Of a stretch of 64,000 nucleotides of DNA, positions 24,649 through 31,464 are shown piece by piece. Under the pieces are notes generated by a model. It was not told the DNA's origin, did not search any database, and saw only the letters and a list, made by a program, of their open reading frames with translations. Numbering within the stretch: position 1 is the first letter of the stretch; each line of letters starts with the position of its first letter. Origin of the DNA: Paenibacillus sp. IHBB 10380 (GTDB lineage: Bacteria; Bacillota; Bacilli; Paenibacillales; Paenibacillaceae); NCBI RefSeq assembly GCF_000949425.1, contig NZ_CP010976.1, forward strand, positions 1,116,001 through 1,180,000, written 5' to 3'. The position numbers and the translations under genes are program-made.

Positions 24649-25032
24649 ATGAAAATACCAATCACAGGTTTTGTTGTTCATTCTGATGATTCAGATTTCG
24701 AGCATTCACATCAACTTTTTATTACTTCGTGGGACGGAAGATCAGTTCATGTTCATCCTTTTGCAGGGGATACTTCATTTGATGTTGGGCATTACCACCA
24801 TTACGCTGGAGTAACAGAACCAGCTCCAAGTGGTATTCAACATGTTCATAATTATTGTGCAAAAACATCATTTAATGATCAACATACTCACATAATTAGA
24901 GGAACTACAGGACCTGCAATTCAATTGACAGGTGGTGGACATTACCATCCTTTTAAAGGATATACAACAGTAAACGGTAAGATCCCTCACGCTCATAGGT
25001 ACAGTGGGAATACTGAAGATGAGGAAGGTTAA
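24649..25032 (+). CDS. ymaF: YmaF family protein
   Basis: 127 residues built of about six short His-rich repeats: EHSHQLFI, VHVHPFAG, GHYHHYAG, QHVHNYCA, QHTHIIRG, GHYHPFKG, PHAHRYSG. Each carries an HxH pair between beta strands, as in the Bacillus YmaF family. The pattern suggests metal binding; no function is established. GAGAGGGG precedes ATG by eight bases. It is monocistronic and lies in a region with other accessory genes. Confidence 0.85.
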   Translation: MKIPITGFVVHSDDSDFEHSHQLFITSWDGRSVHVHPFAGDTSFDVGHYHHYAGVTEPAPSGIQHVHNYCAKTSFNDQHTHIIRGTTGPAIQLTGGGHYHPFKGYTTVNGKIPHAHRYSGNTEDEEG

Positions 25033-25519
25033 TGTTATTAAGTCATTTTTTTGAGTGAAAAATCTTTAACTAATACATTTGCCCAATATGTTATTTGGGA
25101 TAGTAATGCTTAAAGGAATCAGTCACAAGTTAGTAAATATCCAGTTCTTCTATTTAAAATCAAACTTAACTAAGATGAGCTGCTACTGGCTCATCTTTTC
25201 TTGTTGGAGGGGTTGACGCCTAACAATCGGTGGTCATCAGCGTTAAGATTATGGTTATTGAAAAGGGCCATACAGAGCTAGCCGTAACCGTTGTGGAACT
25301 TAGACGATCAATAAGAGAAGCTGCTGATTATCTTACTAAACAAAGTCTCTGGCCAGGGGGGACGACGAAGTACCGGCCCGTCCACTGGATGACCTGCAGG
25401 TGAGTAGAGTTGATGTAGGTGTACTTCTTATGGAAAAGACTAGTGGATGCGCTATATTAATTAGGCTGAGTGCTATTTTATATTGTATATTGGAACTGGA
25501 AAGCCAAAGGAGAGATGGT
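25033..25519. other. Intergenic stretch with terminator and a short GC-richer frame
   Basis: It holds the YmaF terminator (25172-25203) and a 50-codon frame at 25251-25403 whose second half (WPGGTTKYRPVHW) is GC-richer than its surroundings and without a ribosome site. I see no recognisable gene. The short frame may be a fragment of a lost gene. Confidence 0.4.
25172..25203 (+). terminator. Terminator downstream of ymaF
   Basis: AAGATGAGC pairs perfectly with GCTCATCTT across an eight-base loop followed by TTCTTGTT. Confidence 0.7.
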
Positions 25520-25936
25520 ATGTCGACAATAGAGGGAACAAAAGAAAATCCTTGGAAACTAAAAACTCCTCCTCAAACATGTGATTATGAAATGTTTAAG
25601 GACGAAAAAGATGGAAAAGTAATTTTAGTATGTACTGTAGGCAAAACTGTTTTGCATTATGACTATCGTTGTGTTGATGACTTAAACACTATGCTCAAAC
25701 AGCATGGTGACTGGATAGAACTAGCTAGTGCTGATGAGCAGAAACCTGTAAAAGAAGGTACAGTTGAAGCCTGGGGACGGTCGCCTGAAAATCCAATTGG
25801 TGGTTGGTACGGCTTGAAAAAAGGTTTGCGCGGTAGATTTGGCATGTATATACCACCTTTGATGGAAAAATTAGGACTAGCAGAAGTAGAACATAACCCA
25901 AGGAATAATCGAATGAGGACAATAAAACAGCAGTAG
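25520..25936 (+). CDS. DUF6855-like hypothetical protein
   Basis: 138 residues starting at ATG 25520 with AAAGGAGAG upstream; a 40-residue longer frame lacks a ribosome site. Conserved-looking segments are GTKENPWKLKTPP, ILVCTVGKTVLHYDYRC, HGDWIELASADEQKP and WGRSPENPIGGWYGLKKGLRGRFGMYIPPLMEKLGLAEVEHN (given here by region 88-129). I associate this with a DUF6855-type family from memory, with no known function. The TAG stop is the first unit of a CAGTAG tandem repeat, an unusual gene end. Confidence 0.72.
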   Translation: MSTIEGTKENPWKLKTPPQTCDYEMFKDEKDGKVILVCTVGKTVLHYDYRCVDDLNTMLKQHGDWIELASADEQKPVKEGTVEAWGRSPENPIGGWYGLKKGLRGRFGMYIPPLMEKLGLAEVEHNPRNNRMRTIKQQ

Positions 25937-25965
25937 CAGTAGCAGTAGCAGTAGCAGTAGCAGTA
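25931..25965 (+). repeat. Hexanucleotide tandem repeat (CAGTAG) at a stop codon
   Basis: Five complete CAGTAG units and a partial sixth, in frame with the upstream gene, so the stop codon TAG is repeated every six bases. A preceding CAG shows that the last sense codons (Gln-Gln) are part of the same array. It is a simple sequence repeat that could vary by slippage. Confidence 0.9.
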
Positions 25966-25979
25966 CAAATAAAATAGAG

Positions 25980-26007
25980 GAGCTACTCAAAGGTGGCTCT
26001 TCATTTC
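25980..26007 (+). terminator. Terminator of the DUF6855-like gene
   Basis: GAGCTAC pairs with GTGGCTC (seven pairs with one G-U) across a six-base loop, followed by TTCATTT. Confidence 0.55.
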
Positions 26008-26014
26008 TAGTCAG

Positions 26015-26164
26015 CTAGCAAGATGCATCCAACACGAAATTGATCATTTAAATGGAATTCTCTACATAGATCATATCGAAGATGGTTTGTTTTATAATGA
26101 GGAAACTAATGAAAGCGCGAGTCTACTTGAAGTGAGTAAGTTAACATGTAGCAATTCGCTTTAA
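26015..26164 (+). pseudogene. Peptide deformylase C-terminal fragment
   Basis: An open stretch without a start encodes LARCIQHEIDHLNGILYIDH, which contains the HEIDH metal-binding motif and following LNG of peptide deformylase. The upstream two thirds of the enzyme, including the GxGLAAPQ and EGCLS motifs, are absent, and the frame ends at TAA 26162. It is a remnant of a def gene or of its recombination with an element. A functional def must exist elsewhere. Confidence 0.75.
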
Positions 26165-26278
26165 AGGGATGTCTAGGACGTTTGGTCGTTCAGTTATGTT
26201 TAATTAGAGTTGAATTTGAACCATATACTTATCATGGTGTAATCTTAAAGTAATTCAAGTTAGGAGGCTTCGGCCATT

Positions 26279-27013
26279 ATGAAACAGAACAAATATGATG
26301 ATTCAGAATTTTTCGCGAATTACAGTCAGATGCCTCGTTCGATCGGTGGACTGAATGCTGCTGGGGAATGGCAAGAACTACGTGCAATGCTTCCTGAGCT
26401 ACGTGATAAAAAGGTGCTTGATCTTGGCTGCGGATTTGGCTGGCATTCCCGATATGCGCGCGAACAGCATGCCCGTTCGGTGGTTGGTGTAGACCTTTCA
26501 GAGAATATGTTAGAGCGCGCCAGAGCTATGACCAATGATTCAGAGATCAAATATTTCCGTCTCGCGATCGAAGATATCGACTTTACCGCAGGGGAATTCG
26601 ACGTGGTAATAAGCTCACTTGCACTCCATTATATCGAGCGTTTTGACATCCTTTGTCAGAAAATCCATCACTGCCTTGCACCTGAGGGCACTTTCGTGCT
26701 CTCGGTTGAACATCCGGTCTTTACTGCGCTCGCTTCACAAGATTGGTACTATGGTCCGCAAGGGGAGAGATTACATTGGCCTGTCGACGATTACCATCAT
26801 GAAGGTTCACGACAGGCAAGATTTCTGGACAATGATGTCATTAAATACCATCGGACCGTCGCTACCCATATGAATGCACTAATTGAATCCGGCTTTAGAA
26901 TTACGAAAGTTTCCGAACCACAACCGACGCAAGAAATGCTGGACAAGAATCCCGACATGCGAGACGAAACCCGTCGCCCTATCTTCCTCATGATCGCAGC
27001 GGTCAAAAATTAG
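26279..27013 (+). CDS. Class I SAM-dependent methyltransferase
   Basis: 244 residues. Motif I is VLDLGCGFGWHSRYA (about 41-55), followed by VVGVDLSENML, the post-motif IDFTAGEFDVVISSLALHYI and FVLSVEHPVF. This is a stand-alone small-molecule type methyltransferase of the UbiE/Methyltransf_11 class with a C-terminal substrate-binding region. The substrate is not predictable. The ribosome site GGAGG is eleven bases upstream. A terminator follows. Base composition is higher in GC than the neighbouring non-coding DNA, as is common in horizontally gained genes. Confidence 0.85.
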   Translation: MKQNKYDDSEFFANYSQMPRSIGGLNAAGEWQELRAMLPELRDKKVLDLGCGFGWHSRYAREQHARSVVGVDLSENMLERARAMTNDSEIKYFRLAIEDIDFTAGEFDVVISSLALHYIERFDILCQKIHHCLAPEGTFVLSVEHPVFTALASQDWYYGPQGERLHWPVDDYHHEGSRQARFLDNDVIKYHRTVATHMNALIESGFRITKVSEPQPTQEMLDKNPDMRDETRRPIFLMIAAVKN

Positions 27014-27117
27014 AATTTTCAGTAAGTGAAACTAAGCTAAAACCATCTAATATCTTGTCAATATTTTTCTCTTAATTTCTTTGAACTATAGCCTTAAACT
27101 AAAATGACATGCTTAAT

Positions 27118-27150
27118 AACCTTCCTATCTCTTCTGGAAGGTTTTACTTT
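27118..27150 (+). terminator. Terminator of the methyltransferase gene
   Basis: AACCTTCC pairs with GGAAGGTT across a ten-base loop, followed by TTACTTTTAG. Confidence 0.75.
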
Positions 27151-27245
27151 TAGATGGTAATTCTGGATTTTAGCAGATATCTATAAAGGTTTCTTTATGT
27201 GTTAAAACGGCAAATATCCATAGGACTTTTATTTATCACTATCAA

Positions 27246-27274
27246 TTGTTGAAATATTTATTACAAGTTATAAT
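27246..27274 (+). promoter_or_regulatory. Sigma-A promoter for the leader-peptide transcript
   Basis: TTGTTG (27246-27251), a 17-base spacer and a perfect TATAAT (27269-27274). It stands 32 bases before the leader peptide start. Confidence 0.75.
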
Positions 27275-27305
27275 TTACCACAAAGGGTAAAGGGAGGTGG
27301 ATAAC

Positions 27306-27335
27306 ATGGATTTAGAGTGTTTTAAAGCCAACTAA
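27306..27335 (+). CDS. Nine-residue leader peptide
   Basis: ATG with an exceptionally strong site AGGGAGGTGG (27291-27300) opens a nine-codon frame reading MDLECFKAN and stopping at TAA. Its size, strong translation signal and place between a promoter and switch-like inverted repeats fit a regulatory leader peptide of the kind seen before erm and cat genes. No similarity to a specific leader was recognised. Confidence 0.6.
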   Translation: MDLECFKAN

Positions 27336-27339
27336 TTAT

Positions 27340-27386
27340 GGTGGTTATGTAAAAACAACCACCAAATCCATTAAAAATAGGTGGTT
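27340..27386 (+). promoter_or_regulatory. Translational attenuator-like repeats (GGTGGTT x2, AACCACC x1)
   Basis: GGTGGTT (27340-27346), AACCACC (27357-27363) and a second GGTGGTT (27380-27386) are arranged so the middle arm can pair with either. The last copy is the ribosome site of the next frame (ATG 27394). AAATCCA (27364-27370) also pairs with TGGATTT (27307-27313) at the leader start, extending the first helix. Ribosome occupancy of the leader would decide which pairing forms. Confidence 0.62.
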
Positions 27387-27393
27387 AATAAAT

Positions 27394-27564
27394 ATGACAA
27401 ATCAACAATATGAAATTATTAATCGTTCCCCAACAGTGGAGGAACATAATCTCTTGTGGGAATCCGTAGGGTGGGGCGCAGTGGATGTAGATCAGAGTAA
27501 ACAATCACTTGAAAATTCTGTTTATGCCGTTGTCGCAATGTATGATGGAAATGTACTGTCTTAG
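27394..27564 (+). pseudogene. Truncated GNAT acetyltransferase
   Basis: 56 codons reading MTNQQYEIINRSPTVEEHN... and VYAVVAMYDGNVLS, then TAG. The start matches GNAT proteins of the IINR-PTVEEY-LLRESVGW-GNVVGFGR type, which continue for about another 80 residues with the acetyl-CoA-binding site. Here the reading ends just where GFGR should follow, and no continuation in other frames was found. It is therefore a decayed or truncated gene downstream of the leader-peptide switch. A functional small protein is possible but unlikely. Confidence 0.65.
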
Positions 27565-27749
27565 AAAAATAATTAATTTAAACTTTATAGCTCTGGTTGC
27601 TCAGCTAACGAATCACGATACTTTAAAACTGAAGGCTATCCATTCGATTGGTAGCTTCGTTGCACTAACGGGTAGACTTGTTTATATAAATTTATAACCT
27701 AAGATTATACCGAAAACCAGGGTAACTGTAGGTATTGGAGGAAACATCT

Positions 27750-28079
27750 GTGGTGACAATTGAAGACTTTTTGAAATTAGATATCCGTGTTGGTACTGTA
27801 ATTAAAGCAGAACCCTTTCCAGAAGCGCGAAAACCCGCAATAATATTAGAAATTGATTTTGGTGAAATGGGTATTAAACGCTCTTCGGCTCAAATTACAC
27901 AAAGATATGAACCAGAACAACTTATTGGACGTCAAGTAATCGCAGTAATCAACTTTCCAGTTAGACGTATCGCAGGTTTTAAATCTGAGGTGTTGGTAAT
28001 TGGTGGTATTCCAGCAGAAGGTGATGTGGTGCTCTTAAAGCCAGATGAACCTGTTAAAAATGGTACACCCGTTGCCTAA
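27750..28079 (+). CDS. csaA: CsaA, tRNA-binding-fold chaperone
   Basis: 109 residues of the single-domain OB-fold tRNA-binding family. Motifs [46 protein letters not shown] are nearly identical to Bacillus CsaA. CsaA binds SecA and preproteins and is proposed as a secretion chaperone. GTG 27750 is eight bases after GGAGG; a TTG frame at 27735 overlaps that site. It follows the pseudogene region without an evident operon partner. Confidence 0.93.
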
Positions 28080-28218
28080 GGTGTTAGAGTCTACTGGCTA
28101 TAAAACAATGTCAGGCTTAGGGTAATCAGATGACTAGAGCTGAAATATCAAAGATGATGCGATGGGTCATACCTATGCTAATCCACTCTCCTACACTCTC
28201 ATTTATACAATAGAATGG

Positions 28219-28249
28219 TTTGACTTTGTTTGTCTAATCCCACTATAAT
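28219..28249 (+). promoter_or_regulatory. Possible fur promoter
   Basis: TTGACT and TATAAT separated by 19 bases, 48 bases before the fur ATG. The spacer is longer than ideal. No Fur or PerR box was identified. Confidence 0.45.
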
Positions 28250-28296
28250 GATGGAAGTGATATTAAATGCAGTAATTTCCTAGGGGGAGGGAGAAG

Positions 28297-28758
28297 ATGC
28301 AAGCTCGGATCGACAAAATTAAACAACAATTACAATCCCAAGGCTACAAGCTGACACCCCAGCGGGAAGCGACGGTCAGAATTCTACTTGAGAATGAAGA
28401 AGATCATTTAAGCGCGGAAGATGTGTTCATGTTAGTCAGGGAAATAGCTCCCGAGATCGGTCTCGCTACGGTGTATCGTACACTAGAGCTTCTGAGTGAA
28501 CTTCATGTTGTGGAGAAAATTAACTTTGGTGATGGCGTCGCTCGTTATGACCTACGAACAGATACAGCAAAGCATCATCACCATCATCTAATTTGTGTAC
28601 AGTGTGGTAGAATGGATGAAATACGTGAAGATTGGCTCGGTCCATTGGAAGAGCGTCTTGATAAAGAATACAATTTCACAGTATCTGATCATCGACTTGA
28701 TTTTCATGGTATTTGTTACCGCTGTAAAGAAAAGAATGATAACAACAAAGATTCTTAA
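28297..28758 (+). CDS. fur: Ferric uptake regulator Fur
   Basis: 153 residues. A winged helix (about 20-85) with KLTPQREATV and GLATVYRTLELL is followed by the regulatory metal site in KHHHHH (about 91-96) and two zinc-binding CxxC pairs (CVQC and CYRC). The ferrous form represses iron uptake genes. GGGGGAGGG precedes ATG. The order fur-yqzK-xerD-deoB-punA-dacF is the same as Bacillus subtilis, supporting Fur rather than PerR or Zur. Confidence 0.95.
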   Translation: MQARIDKIKQQLQSQGYKLTPQREATVRILLENEEDHLSAEDVFMLVREIAPEIGLATVYRTLELLSELHVVEKINFGDGVARYDLRTDTAKHHHHHLICVQCGRMDEIREDWLGPLEERLDKEYNFTVSDHRLDFHGICYRCKEKNDNNKDS

Positions 28759-28913
28759 GAATTATGAATATCGTAATGAGAATACAAAGCTCTCACCGGC
28801 ACTGGATTCATCGGGGGGGCTTTTTGCTTGTTAATGAGACTATGGTGATGTCAAGTAGGCAAGGAATAAATGGGGACAAACCGTCATATCTTCATGGAAG
28901 AGGGGGCGTTTCT

Positions 28914-29153
28914 ATGGTCATTTCTTTGCGTAAATGCCTAGGTTTTATAAGGTTTATTATTATGTTTGTCGCATTAACTTATATGTTCTATCACATGGTA
29001 GGTTTATTTGGACGTTGGATCACACCAGTGGATCAATATAAGATTCCTAAAGGTTACGCTGTCAAAGCATTTCAGTCTCATGATGGAGATGGAAATGCAG
29101 AAGATGCTAGTATGGGTGAACGTCTACGATTCTATTATTGGTATGGAGAATAG
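28914..29153 (+). CDS. yqzK: DUF4227 membrane protein (YqzK-like)
   Basis: 79 residues with one N-terminal membrane segment (RFIIMFVALTYMFYHMV) and a short outside tail with KIPKGYAVKAF...ERLRFYYWYGE. That tail, and the place between fur and xerD, match YqzK/DUF4227. ATG 28914 follows GAGGGGGCG; the frame extends upstream to 28764 without support. Function unknown; size and anchoring suggest a small accessory protein. Confidence 0.82.
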   Translation: MVISLRKCLGFIRFIIMFVALTYMFYHMVGLFGRWITPVDQYKIPKGYAVKAFQSHDGDGNAEDASMGERLRFYYWYGE

Positions 29154-29257
29154 GACATTAATAGGCAGGATTATGGAGAAACGTGTCGAATTTACTATTG
29201 ATAATGAAGCCCTAAGGGAATTGTAAGCTTCATGCACTCGGATATAGAAGGAGCACA

Positions 29258-30172
29258 ATGACCATGAAAGAGTATCTGGTATCCTTTATTCGATACATGG
29301 GTGATGAGAGAGGGTTGTCACGAAATACGCTTGAGAGCTATGAGCGAGATTTGGTACAGGTACTCGAGTTTATGGAAGCTCGAGGTATCCATTCTCCTGA
29401 TCAGATCAAGCGAAGTGATATCGTTCTTTTTTTACAATCGATGAAACAGGCTGGTCGGGCTGCTTCTACAGTGACTCGTAAGACAGTATCTATACGTTCA
29501 TTTTTTCAATACTTATCTAAAGAGTCTGTTGTGGGACATGATCCCTCTCTTCATATTGAAACGCCGAAGCTTGAGAAAAAAGCCCCGAATGTACTATCTA
29601 TTGAGGAAGTGGAGCAATTGTTGGCTGCTCCTGAATCGTTAACACCTCAGGGCTTAAGGGATAAGGCGATGTTAGAGCTTTTGTATGCAACGGGAATGAA
29701 AGTGTCAGAATTGGTCTCGCTAGATATAGGGCATGTGCAAACGCAGCTTAGATATTTACATTGTATCGGTAGCTCAGGTAAAGAACGAATTCTTCCTTTT
29801 AATAGGATATCTGCAGAACATGTCGATCTTTATTTACAAGAGGGTCGGGATAAGCTAGCGAGAGATAATGGCGATAAACAGGCGTTATTCCTAAACACCT
29901 TAGGGGGCAGGTTAACACGTCAAGGATTCTGGAAGCTTATGAAGAAGTATGGGAAAGAGACAGGAATTAAGAAGGACATCACTCCACACACACTACGTCA
30001 TTCCTTTGCATCTCATCTGATAGGGAATGGAGCTGATTTACGCTCTGTGCAGGAAATGTTAGGTTATTCCGATATCTCAACGACACAACTGTATAGCTCT
30101 ATAACTAAGAAAAGTATGAAGGAAGAATATGATCATCACCATCCACGGGCTTCGTTTGAGTCGTTATCATAG
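29258..30172 (+). CDS. xerD: Tyrosine recombinase XerD (two catalytic residues substituted)
   Basis: 304 residues, same length and position as Bacillus XerD (ripX). The core-binding domain (1-90) opens with GLSRNTLESYERDL. In the catalytic domain the first Arg of the family (LLYATGxRVSE) is Lys at about 148 (TGMKVSEL), and the His/Trp of LGHxDISTT is Tyr at about 270 (LGYSDISTT). The remaining residues are present: Lys in GSSGKERILP, HTLRHS, and nucleophile Tyr about 279. XerD resolves chromosome dimers with XerC/CodV. Substitution of the two residues raises doubt about full activity. Start ATG 29258 or 29264 behind AAGGAG. Confidence 0.9.
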   Translation: MTMKEYLVSFIRYMGDERGLSRNTLESYERDLVQVLEFMEARGIHSPDQIKRSDIVLFLQSMKQAGRAASTVTRKTVSIRSFFQYLSKESVVGHDPSLHIETPKLEKKAPNVLSIEEVEQLLAAPESLTPQGLRDKAMLELLYATGMKVSELVSLDIGHVQTQLRYLHCIGSSGKERILPFNRISAEHVDLYLQEGRDKLARDNGDKQALFLNTLGGRLTRQGFWKLMKKYGKETGIKKDITPHTLRHSFASHLIGNGADLRSVQEMLGYSDISTTQLYSSITKKSMKEEYDHHHPRASFESLS

Positions 30173-30191
30173 TACTTTTTGACCTCATATC

Positions 30192-30217
30192 CCGTTCTGT
30201 GGAAGAATGGTTTTTTT
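30192..30217 (+). terminator. Terminator between xerD and deoB
   Basis: CCGTTCT pairs with AGAATGG across a five-base loop followed by seven T. It separates xerD from the nucleoside catabolism genes. Confidence 0.7.
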
Positions 30218-30270
30218 GTTGATTGGCATCATAGTATGGAATGATTGAACATAATAAGGAGTGAAAGCTC

Positions 30271-31464
30271 ATGGTAAATTCGGATGAACGTAACTTTAAG
30301 CGTATTTGCTTCATCGTACTGGACAGTGTAGGGATTGGAGAAGCACCGGATGCTGCTGAGTTTGGTGACGAAGGATCACATACACTTGGACATATATTAG
30401 AAAGAGTGCAGGATCTTAAATTACCTCATATGCAACAAATGGGACTGGCGAATATCGCTTCGATCCCCCCTTTAAGTCCTGTAGACAAGCCTACTGCTTA
30501 TTTCGGTAAAATGCAGGAAGTATCTGTGGGTAAAGATACGATGACAGGACACTGGGAATTAATGGGACTTAAAATTGATATCCCCTTTAATACATACGCA
30601 GAAGGTTTCCCGGCGGAATTAATACAGTTATTTGAGGAGAAGACAGGGCGTAAAGTGATTGGGAATAAGCCTGCCTCGGGTACTGATATTCTTGTTGAAT
30701 ACGGTGAAGAGCAGATGAAAACAGGGGCATGGATCGTCTATACATCTGGTGACAGCGTCTTTCAATTAGCTGCGCATGAAGATATTATTCCATTGGAAGA
30801 GTTGTATGAAGCCTGCAGAATTGCAAGGGAATTAACCATGGCTCCAGAGTTCTCCGTAGGTCGCGTCATTGCTCGTCCATACGTAGGAGAGCCTGGACAT
30901 TTCACACGCACACCTAATCGGCATGATTATGCTGTGAAGCCACCTGAACCCACCATCATGAATGCGGTACAGGATGTAGACAAGAAAGTGATTGCTGTAG
31001 GTAAAATCAATGATATTTTCACTGGAGAAGGTGTCTCAGAGTCTTATCCTACGAAGAGTAATGAGCATGGTATTGAAGTCACCCTTGAGCAATTGTCGCA
31101 AGATTTTACGGGCTTTCTATTTACGAACCTTGTGGACTTCGATTCTTTATATGGACATCGTCGTGATCCAGAAGGATACGGTAGAGCACTAGAGGTGTTC
31201 GATCAGGCACTTCCAGATATCGTCTCTAAGATTGGGGAAGATGATCTACTCATTATATCAGCAGACCATGGGAACGATCCTGTGCATAGTGGGACAGACC
31301 ACACGCGCGAATTTGTACCCTTACTTGTATATAGTCCTCGTTTCACTGCGACTTCGAACTTGGGCATCCTCAGCTCTTTCTCAGATGTGGGTGCTACAAT
31401 TGCTGAGAACTTTGGAGCACAAGCTCCGAAATACGGAACAAGTTTTTTGAAACAATTAATATAG
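30271..31464 (+). CDS. deoB: Phosphopentomutase DeoB
   Basis: 397 residues of the alkaline phosphatase-like superfamily. Metal-binding segments [28 protein letters not shown] (nucleophile Thr), [15 protein letters not shown] and [18 protein letters not shown] are all present. It interconverts ribose or deoxyribose 1- and 5-phosphates using two Mn ions. AAGGAG is upstream of ATG. It is followed by punA at 18 bases (about 3 after a longer start), making a purine nucleoside salvage pair as in Bacillus (drm-pupG). Confidence 0.96.

Follow-up and report, generated by a model that had tools for sequence, protein, structure and literature searches.

The question raised by this locus is whether the short leader frame and the repeated arms in front of a truncated acetyltransferase gene form a switch that is operated by ribosomes, and which genes such a switch would serve. 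The locus lies in the window, by which we mean the whole stretch of 64,000 nucleotides from Paenibacillus sp. IHBB 10380 that was analysed. An earlier note on this DNA proposed a leader-peptide switch that gates a second ribosome site, following the logic of the attenuators before erm and cat resistance genes. We suggest, with a probability of roughly 0.6, that the element is a ribosome-operated translational attenuator dedicated to one family of GNAT acetyltransferases. As such it would represent a family-specific variant of leader-peptide translational attenuation.

Layout of the element

The leader, its Shine-Dalgarno (SD) sequence, the arms, the helix, the promoter hexamers and the GNAT frame all lie at the coordinates that the earlier note gave for them:

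27246-27274, + strand: probable promoter, read from the sequence; TTGTTG, a 17-nt spacer and TATAAT
27246-27251, + strand: -35 hexamer TTGTTG, read from the sequence
27269-27274, + strand: -10 hexamer TATAAT, read from the sequence
27291-27300, + strand: leader ribosome-binding site AGGGAGGTGG, strong, read from the sequence
27306-27335, + strand: leader ORF MDLECFKAN, nine codons, from the ATG at 27306 to a TAA stop; homologous leaders in 32 further elements
27307-27313, + strand: arm 1, TGGATTT, at the leader start; pairs with 27364-27370
27340-27346, + strand: arm A, GGTGGTT, the putative antisequester; starts 4 nt past the leader stop
27357-27363, + strand: arm B, AACCACC; its partner is A or C
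27364-27370, + strand: arm 1', AAATCCA, immediately 3' of B; its partner is the leader start
27380-27386, + strand: arm C, GGTGGTT, ribosome-binding site of the GNAT frame; predicted to pair with B when A is masked
27394-27564, + strand: 5' remnant of the GNAT gene, 56 codons of about 140, without the acetyl-CoA-binding half

The nine-codon leader, the three arms and the use of the last arm as the ribosome site of the next frame are present in the sequence as had been described. So is the helix between the leader start and the middle-arm region, where TGGATTT is complementary to AAATCCA. The distance from the leader stop to the GNAT start is 58 nt in the window, and purine-rich SD-like stretches lie ahead of the homologous leaders.

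The promoter had been called clean. Both hexamers and the 17-nt spacer are there, but this word is too strong, since TTGTTG matches TTGACA at only 3/6 positions; for the same reason the hexamer is absent from a consensus promoter scan. A site of equal score was met in 2 of 100 shuffles. A TTGTnn-17-TATnnT site occupies a similar position in 10 of the other 32 elements; by the rule used, 17 of all 33 have no promoter-like site. Transcription would be expected to start at about 27281.

Folded alone, the window RNA is not more stable than its shuffles (MFE -21.6, z -0.88, with 43 of 200 shuffles as stable). The element stands beyond chance because it is conserved across species, and not by single-sequence folding. 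In the window from 26900 to 28300, Rfam gave no match at gathering score, the one match being far below its own. Across 11 loci the element was likewise unmatched in Rfam, and the sole match was a group II intron near the locus L002 (group-II-D1D4-3 at L002:2085-2164, downstream of the intact GNAT gene and just above the gathering score, 36 vs 32). A scan of the window between 26600 and 28400, confined to the window, found no terminator-like site on the + strand.

The truncated gene and its intact family

The gene had been described as a GNAT cut at about 56 codons, and the alignments agree. The 56-residue frame can be aligned with positions 1-56 of intact GNATs, which are about 140 residues long, with a best identity of 64%. 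It stops just short of a GMGR..VGD stretch conserved in the relatives (alignment A1), which is taken as the start of the acetyl-CoA-binding half. Pfam gave no match for the frame itself. The C-terminal halves of 38 relatives, searched against the window from 25001 to 31000, revealed no remnant of the missing half; at E up to 1 there were two rows (0.18 and 0.64), both chance-like and far from the remnant. An intact member of the family was not found elsewhere in the window's genome at E 1e-30. The earlier note had left a choice between a remnant and a switch that still controls the short product. The remnant is favored, and the 56-codon product can hardly be an enzyme, since it ends before the acetyl-CoA-binding half and the rest was not found.

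Searches with the 56-residue frame returned only the frame itself among proteins of similar length and nothing among contigs, and a DNA-level search for the locus in 150 relatives found only its own genome. A contig search with an alignment of full-length relatives gave 490 stretches, of which the best 80 of 490 were kept. The intact GNAT of L002 has 139 residues and one GNAT domain, and it matches GNAT Pfam models; no NCBIfam model scores above its cut-off for this protein. Its closest PDB entry by sequence is SA2161 (1y7r), which was deposited as a hypothetical protein. The 120 listed relatives of the GNAT have 112-167 residues. A plasmid search with the L002 protein gave 46 records, all with less than 60% identity (36% in the best rows), the records coming from Agrobacterium, Rhizobium, Gemmobacter and Pararhizobium. 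The neighbours of intact copies (10 proteins at 8 loci) have no common theme; among them are two GNATs of the Acetyltransf_3 type (L050 and L061).

Some further observations concern the surroundings of the remnant. Just past the truncated gene, at 27641-27700, there is a 60-nt stretch that is 80% identical to G000:C1:930472-930531 and is possibly a repeat near the end of the deletion. Between the remnant and a Fur gene lies a gene with a tRNA_bind domain (27735-28079), which we take to be CsaA-like. In genome G010, some 135 kb separate the similar stretch (89%) from the Fur-like match; what lies upstream of Fur is therefore variable. On the - strand at about 25877-25990, ORF translations have long YCYCYC / LLLLLL runs, which suggest a simple-sequence repeat.

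Conservation in relatives

The earlier note had made conservation of the leader and arms in relatives decisive for its proposal. They are conserved, and intact homologs with the same leader exist: together with the window, 33 distinct elements of the same layout were found, mostly in Paenibacillus. Upstream regions of GNAT loci supplied 28 of these and a covariance-model search five. The named records outside Paenibacillus are an uncultured Brevibacillus (L075), Domibacillus indicus (L076) and Priestia koreensis (L067); the remaining elements are in genomes of the same genus, family or order. Several loci were dropped before the counts were made, namely duplicates (L039 = L004, L040 = L005, L060 = L022, L066 = L017, L068 = L012, L153-L164, L166 and L167, among others), L063 with its weak arms (kept in the set for leader-body pairing), L003 and L033, where the leader start is fused to the GNAT start, and L023 and L010, which have the arms and an unconvincing leader.

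The order of leader, A, B and C is fixed in the 33 elements. The leaders have 7-13 codons, start with ATG (30) or GTG (3) and end with TAA (31) or TAG (2). Codon 2 is GAG in 29, AAG in 3 and GAT in 1, and its first base is thus a purine in 33/33. Past codon 2, these 33 leader peptides have no conserved residue and no conserved stall sequence; what they share is codons 1-2 only, M or V at the start followed by E, K or D. Their commonest residues are Lys, Glu and Asn. Despite the varying leader length, arm A starts at -1 to 5 nt relative to the leader stop in 33/33 elements.

Covariation of the arms

Pairs were counted on ungapped arms at fixed distances, the MAFFT alignment A2 having misplaced arm 1'. 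For A:B, 92% of cells in the 33 elements are paired vs 86.5% expected by permutation, and none of 2000 permutations is as high. The middle pair is T-A in 20 elements and C-G in 11; the other two, L170 and L171, have a C/A mismatch, and there B fits C instead. Helix 1:1' is paired at 68% of cells vs 64% by permutation, again with 0 of 2000 as high (33 elements). When the register was scanned in 28 elements, the maximum of 70% fell at the expected register, with 32-58% at other shifts. The window has its own compensated form of this helix, TGGATTT with AAATCCA, which gives 7 Watson-Crick pairs. The helix is weak in L042, L044, L050, L053, L069 and L071, among others.

Arms C and B are 93% paired and do not covary, since 743 of 2000 permutations reach the observed value (33 elements). 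This is because C is nearly invariant, as it must remain a ribosome site, and B:C thus rests on complementarity. The permutations ignore relatedness, and the elements were thinned by identity. Below 80% identity (18 elements), 1, 24 and 813 of 2000 permutations were as high for A:B, 1:1' and C:B, respectively; below 70% (9 elements) the figures were 4, 44 and 417. Thinning weakens the support for 1:1'. The covariation of the three arms that the earlier note had looked to is therefore found in A:B, and also in 1:1', but not in C:B.

Association with one GNAT family

Covariance model R1 was built from 14 training sequences, all from upstream of the GNAT family. In 392 order-level genomes it matched 19 at E 0.001. 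All 19 matches lie directly before a member of the GNAT family, one of them being the truncated window copy; 12 are training sequences met again and 7 were not in the training set. There was no match ahead of any other gene in the 392 genomes, in a search whose size brings stricter filters. The model found L012, L017, L069 and L075 at E 0.1-0.6, and L021, L022, L067, L071 and L076 were not listed at E 1. Since R1 reaches diverged elements poorly, such elements before other genes would be missed. An extra R1 match in the window (24856-24940, E 0.25) was taken as chance.

A tree of the GNAT family has 94 rows, which are 93 intact genes (29 of them with the layout described above, type I) and the window fragment. 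All genes with a recognised leader of types I-III belong to a single clade of 54 rows (support 100/99), made up of 30 with type I, 7 with type II, 2 with type III and 15 without a recognised leader. None of the other 40 rows has a recognised leader. The tree is based on 142 columns and many forks are open; on it type I needs 13 changes, compared with 25.5 in shuffles.

As these counts indicate, two further leader-type arrangements seem to precede the same GNAT family. Type II was seen in seven loci of the window's genus or in Paenibacillus records (L011, L013, L014, L016, L018, L019 and L020), at most about 100 nt ahead of the GNAT start. Its leader, VELTTLQSLQ (VELTTTTLQSL in L020), has an upstream ACCCATTC-like arm on one side and the SD in GAATGGGT on the other, and this arm is complementary to the SD. 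Folded without a ribosome, the type II site is shut (5.8-10.6 kcal/mol). With a ribosome on the last codon, opening is easier in 7/7 (3.4-4.8 kcal/mol) and the cost is the lowest of all positions in 5/7, so that type II folds in the opposite direction to type I. Type III, about 30-170 nt upstream of the GNAT start in L006, L007, L009 and L024 (two of the four are in the tree), has a terminator-like hairpin followed by a T-rich run, both by eye and in folds. A leader ORF beginning MRFF or MRFW is present in L006, L007 and L009, and the arrangement looks like ribosome-mediated transcription attenuation. Around 1495-1515 of L003 and L033, the GNAT (MNNMEL...) carries the leader SD and start as an in-frame fusion, as would result if the gene had lost the switch and taken over the leader start. 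That leaders are used repeatedly ahead of one GNAT family hints at a signal connected with translation.

Folding under a ribosome footprint and proposed mechanism

The RNA was folded, at equilibrium only, with the footprint of a ribosome moved along the leader one codon at a time. Averaged over the 33 elements, opening of the GNAT ribosome site costs 5.2 kcal/mol when the last codon is occupied and 4.3 when the penultimate is; counting back from the end, a ribosome at the third codon gives 2.4 and one at the fourth to seventh gives 1.8-2.0. The cost is 2.1 kcal/mol with an early ribosome and 2.7 without any. The last-codon cost exceeds the early cost in 29/33 elements, the exceptions being the window, L022, L052 and L165; across footprint sizes this holds in 25 to 29 of the 33. 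Shuffling the stretch from the leader stop to the SD abolishes the effect (mean difference +3.4 observed vs -0.7 in 28 elements). In 23 of these 28, at most 10% of 60 shuffles are as high, and the window, L022, L052, L071 and L076 miss this mark.

The contribution of single arms was seen by barring A or B from pairing with the sequence unchanged; complementing the core of A is unsuitable, since the complement is itself an anti-SD. With A barred, the early cost rises from 2.1 to 7.0 kcal/mol (up in 33/33) and the cost without a ribosome from 2.7 to 6.3 (up in 31/33). With B barred, the cost is 1.7-2.0 in every state and the site is open throughout. Thus, in the folds, it is B that shuts the site and A that holds it open, and A is taken away by a ribosome that completes the leader.

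We propose the following mechanism for intact copies. In unhindered cells, ribosomes would run through the leader and stop just upstream of A. The terminating ribosome would cover A, B would then pair with C, and the GNAT ribosome site would be shut. When a ribosome is held at the first codons, or when initiation at the leader is impaired, A would be free to pair with B, C would be left open, and the acetyltransferase would be made. Helix 1:1' ties the leader start to the strand adjoining B, and it may support A:B when the leader start is free of ribosomes. A ribosome at the leader end would close the site because A lies right after the stop codon. We infer from the models that the switch operates in this way in cells. 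The signal may be a translation inhibitor, which the GNAT would counter.

The proposal of a leader switch gating the second ribosome site is thereby borne out in so far as the arms and helices recur, A:B and 1:1' covary, and intact homologs share the leader. That ribosome stalling frees the site is also seen in the folds, but only when the ribosome is held early; at the leader end it closes the site. The earlier note had not fixed a position for the stall.

State of the copy in the window

The best folds of the window's element have A:B at codons 1, 2, 4, 6 and 7 and B:C at 8 and 9 (of the codons run), so the topology is intact. In the early states, the SD is paired with the leader's own end (codons 1 and 2) or with CCATT of 1' (codons 4, 6 and 7). 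Folding with ribosome masking, which the earlier note had put forward as a check, thus gives the change from A:B early to B:C late, but the SD stays paired early and the excess of the last-codon cost over the early cost is absent.

Poor folding of the switch together with a truncated gene is what relaxed selection would give. The window locus is probably a remnant in which a decaying switch lies before a truncated gene. It is quite likely that this copy is simply dead, a drifting remnant without regulatory consequence. Its gene is without the catalytic half, of which there is no trace in the window from 25001 to 31000, its leader departs from the family, with MD in place of ME or MK, and the folding of its switch is poor. 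Against a dead copy, nothing is broken in the SD, the leader frame, the arms or 1:1' (7 Watson-Crick pairs), and there is a promoter-like site as well. The reading of a dead copy is limited to the window and is compatible with the main explanation for the intact relatives.

Alternative explanations

A ribosome could also act as it does in cat-like leaders, where the site is shut without ribosomes and a stall anywhere on the leader breaks a sequestering helix between leader body and site, and so opens the site. An early ribosome is cheaper than none in 21/33 elements (mean 2.1 vs 2.7 kcal/mol), the best fold of L041 pairs the leader body with the site, the leader end of the window pairs with the GNAT ribosome site better than shuffles do (z -1.8), and type II behaves in this direction. 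However, leader-body pairing to C is no better than that of shuffled leader bodies (mean z 0.05, 29 elements), and a helix between leader body and SD was rejected for the family on this ground. A ribosome at the leader end, moreover, closes the site in 29/33. We consider a cat-like mechanism unlikely for type I.

If the leader simply fed ribosomes to the GNAT gene by re-initiation, the hairpin would be incidental. Such coupling would suit the arrangement seen here, in which a short leader has its own SD and lies immediately ahead of a gene. But the A:B hairpin covaries, A is constantly placed at the stop codon, and the 58 nt that separate stop and start in the window are a long distance for translational coupling; we hold this to be very improbable. 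An amino-acid or metabolite attenuator, in which a scarce amino acid slows ribosomes at its codons, would suit a layout that is like the trp choice between 2:3 and 3:4, and Lys, Glu and Asn are the commonest leader residues. Yet the 33 leaders have no single-codon run in common, nor is any residue conserved beyond codon 2, and it was on leader composition that this explanation was rejected. The controlled gene is also an acetyltransferase rather than a biosynthetic operon, and the window has no + strand terminator-like site in 26600-28400. We hold this, too, to be very improbable. The reading that we prefer is still the attenuator in which a ribosome finishing the leader covers A.

Possible inducers and significance

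A more specific form of the preferred reading is that the switch senses antibiotics of a kind that stops ribosomes on the first codons, for example those of the paenilamicin/galantin type, and that the GNAT inactivates them by N-acetylation. These translocation inhibitors are made by Paenibacillus. A different GNAT, PamZ, inactivates paenilamicin (PMC9054821). Toeprints with paenilamicin B2 are described, in PMC11581978, as showing an arrest of the first translocation that is strongest when codon 2 begins with G, then A, weaker with C, and little or none with U. The purine at this position in 33/33 leaders is in keeping with such a preference. Against it, GAG also serves helix 1:1', a purine in codon 2 is common (36/50 ORFs of the window, with G in 13/50), type III leaders have CGC at codon 2, and the GNAT is single-domain, unlike PamZ. 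We regard the paenilamicin reading as a long shot; if true, a single codon, and not a stall peptide, would give this attenuator its drug specificity.

The broader reading of a translational attenuator gives a functional hint for the GNAT family. Apparent control by leader translation in more than one way makes it likely that these enzymes answer translation stress. An antisequester arm that touches the leader stop leads to a sharp prediction, namely that a block at early codons turns the gene on and completion of the leader turns it off. From the regulator, the intact copies of soil Paenibacillus offer a route to the inducer and to the substrate of the enzyme.

Comparison with known systems

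Among the matches listed in the open-licence PMC literature, judged by title and the start of the abstract, we found no description of a leader-controlled GNAT of this family. The logic of erm and cat leaders, which the earlier note had invoked, applies as far as alternative helices go. Mutually exclusive helices around the SD are seen here by sequence and folding only, as A:B and B:C share B. The wiring, however, is nearer to the choice between 2:3 and 3:4 in ermC and trp than to the single cat hairpin.

In ermC-type regulation, a leader ORF with its own SD is followed by alternative helices, and a stalled ribosome frees the SD in the last arm. The present element is similar in having a leader with its own SD, alternative helices between which a stalled ribosome would select, and a last arm that is the SD of the regulated gene. 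It differs in having three main arms plus a helix from the leader start, in the position of A directly after the leader stop, from which completion of the leader is predicted to close the site, in the lack of a conserved stall peptide among the 33 leaders, and in controlling a GNAT. In trp-type attenuation, a finishing ribosome covers arm 2 and 3:4 forms, and an early stall gives 2:3. Here too the position of the leader stop would let a finishing ribosome cover an arm, and an early stall would give the alternative helix. Unlike in trp, the last arm is a ribosome site and not a terminator, and there is no run of regulatory codons in the leaders.

The toiL-topAI system of E. coli is a further relative in logic. 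Several inhibitors stall ribosomes at different toiL codons, and the authors list vmlR, vga(A) and cplR as uORFs for which every inducer probably causes a stall at the start codon (PMC12121999). Common features are a short uORF, a downstream ribosome site gated by ribosome occupancy, and induction by a start-codon stall, which in our element is predicted (for toiL, PMC12121999). The difference is that the toiL ORF itself pairs with the site in that account (PMC12121999), whereas here the sequestering arm lies downstream of the leader. Pairing of the toiL kind is unsupported across the family (mean z 0.05, 29 elements), and single elements, including the window, show it. On the side of the enzyme, the antibiotic-inactivating proteins PamZ and ZmaR belong, like the family described here, to the GNAT superfamily. 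The substrate of PamZ is a translation inhibitor that a Paenibacillus makes and that PamZ acetylates; PamZ is a tandem GNAT with domains at 1-128 and 140-275 (PMC9054821), whereas the proteins behind our leaders have a single domain of about 140 residues.
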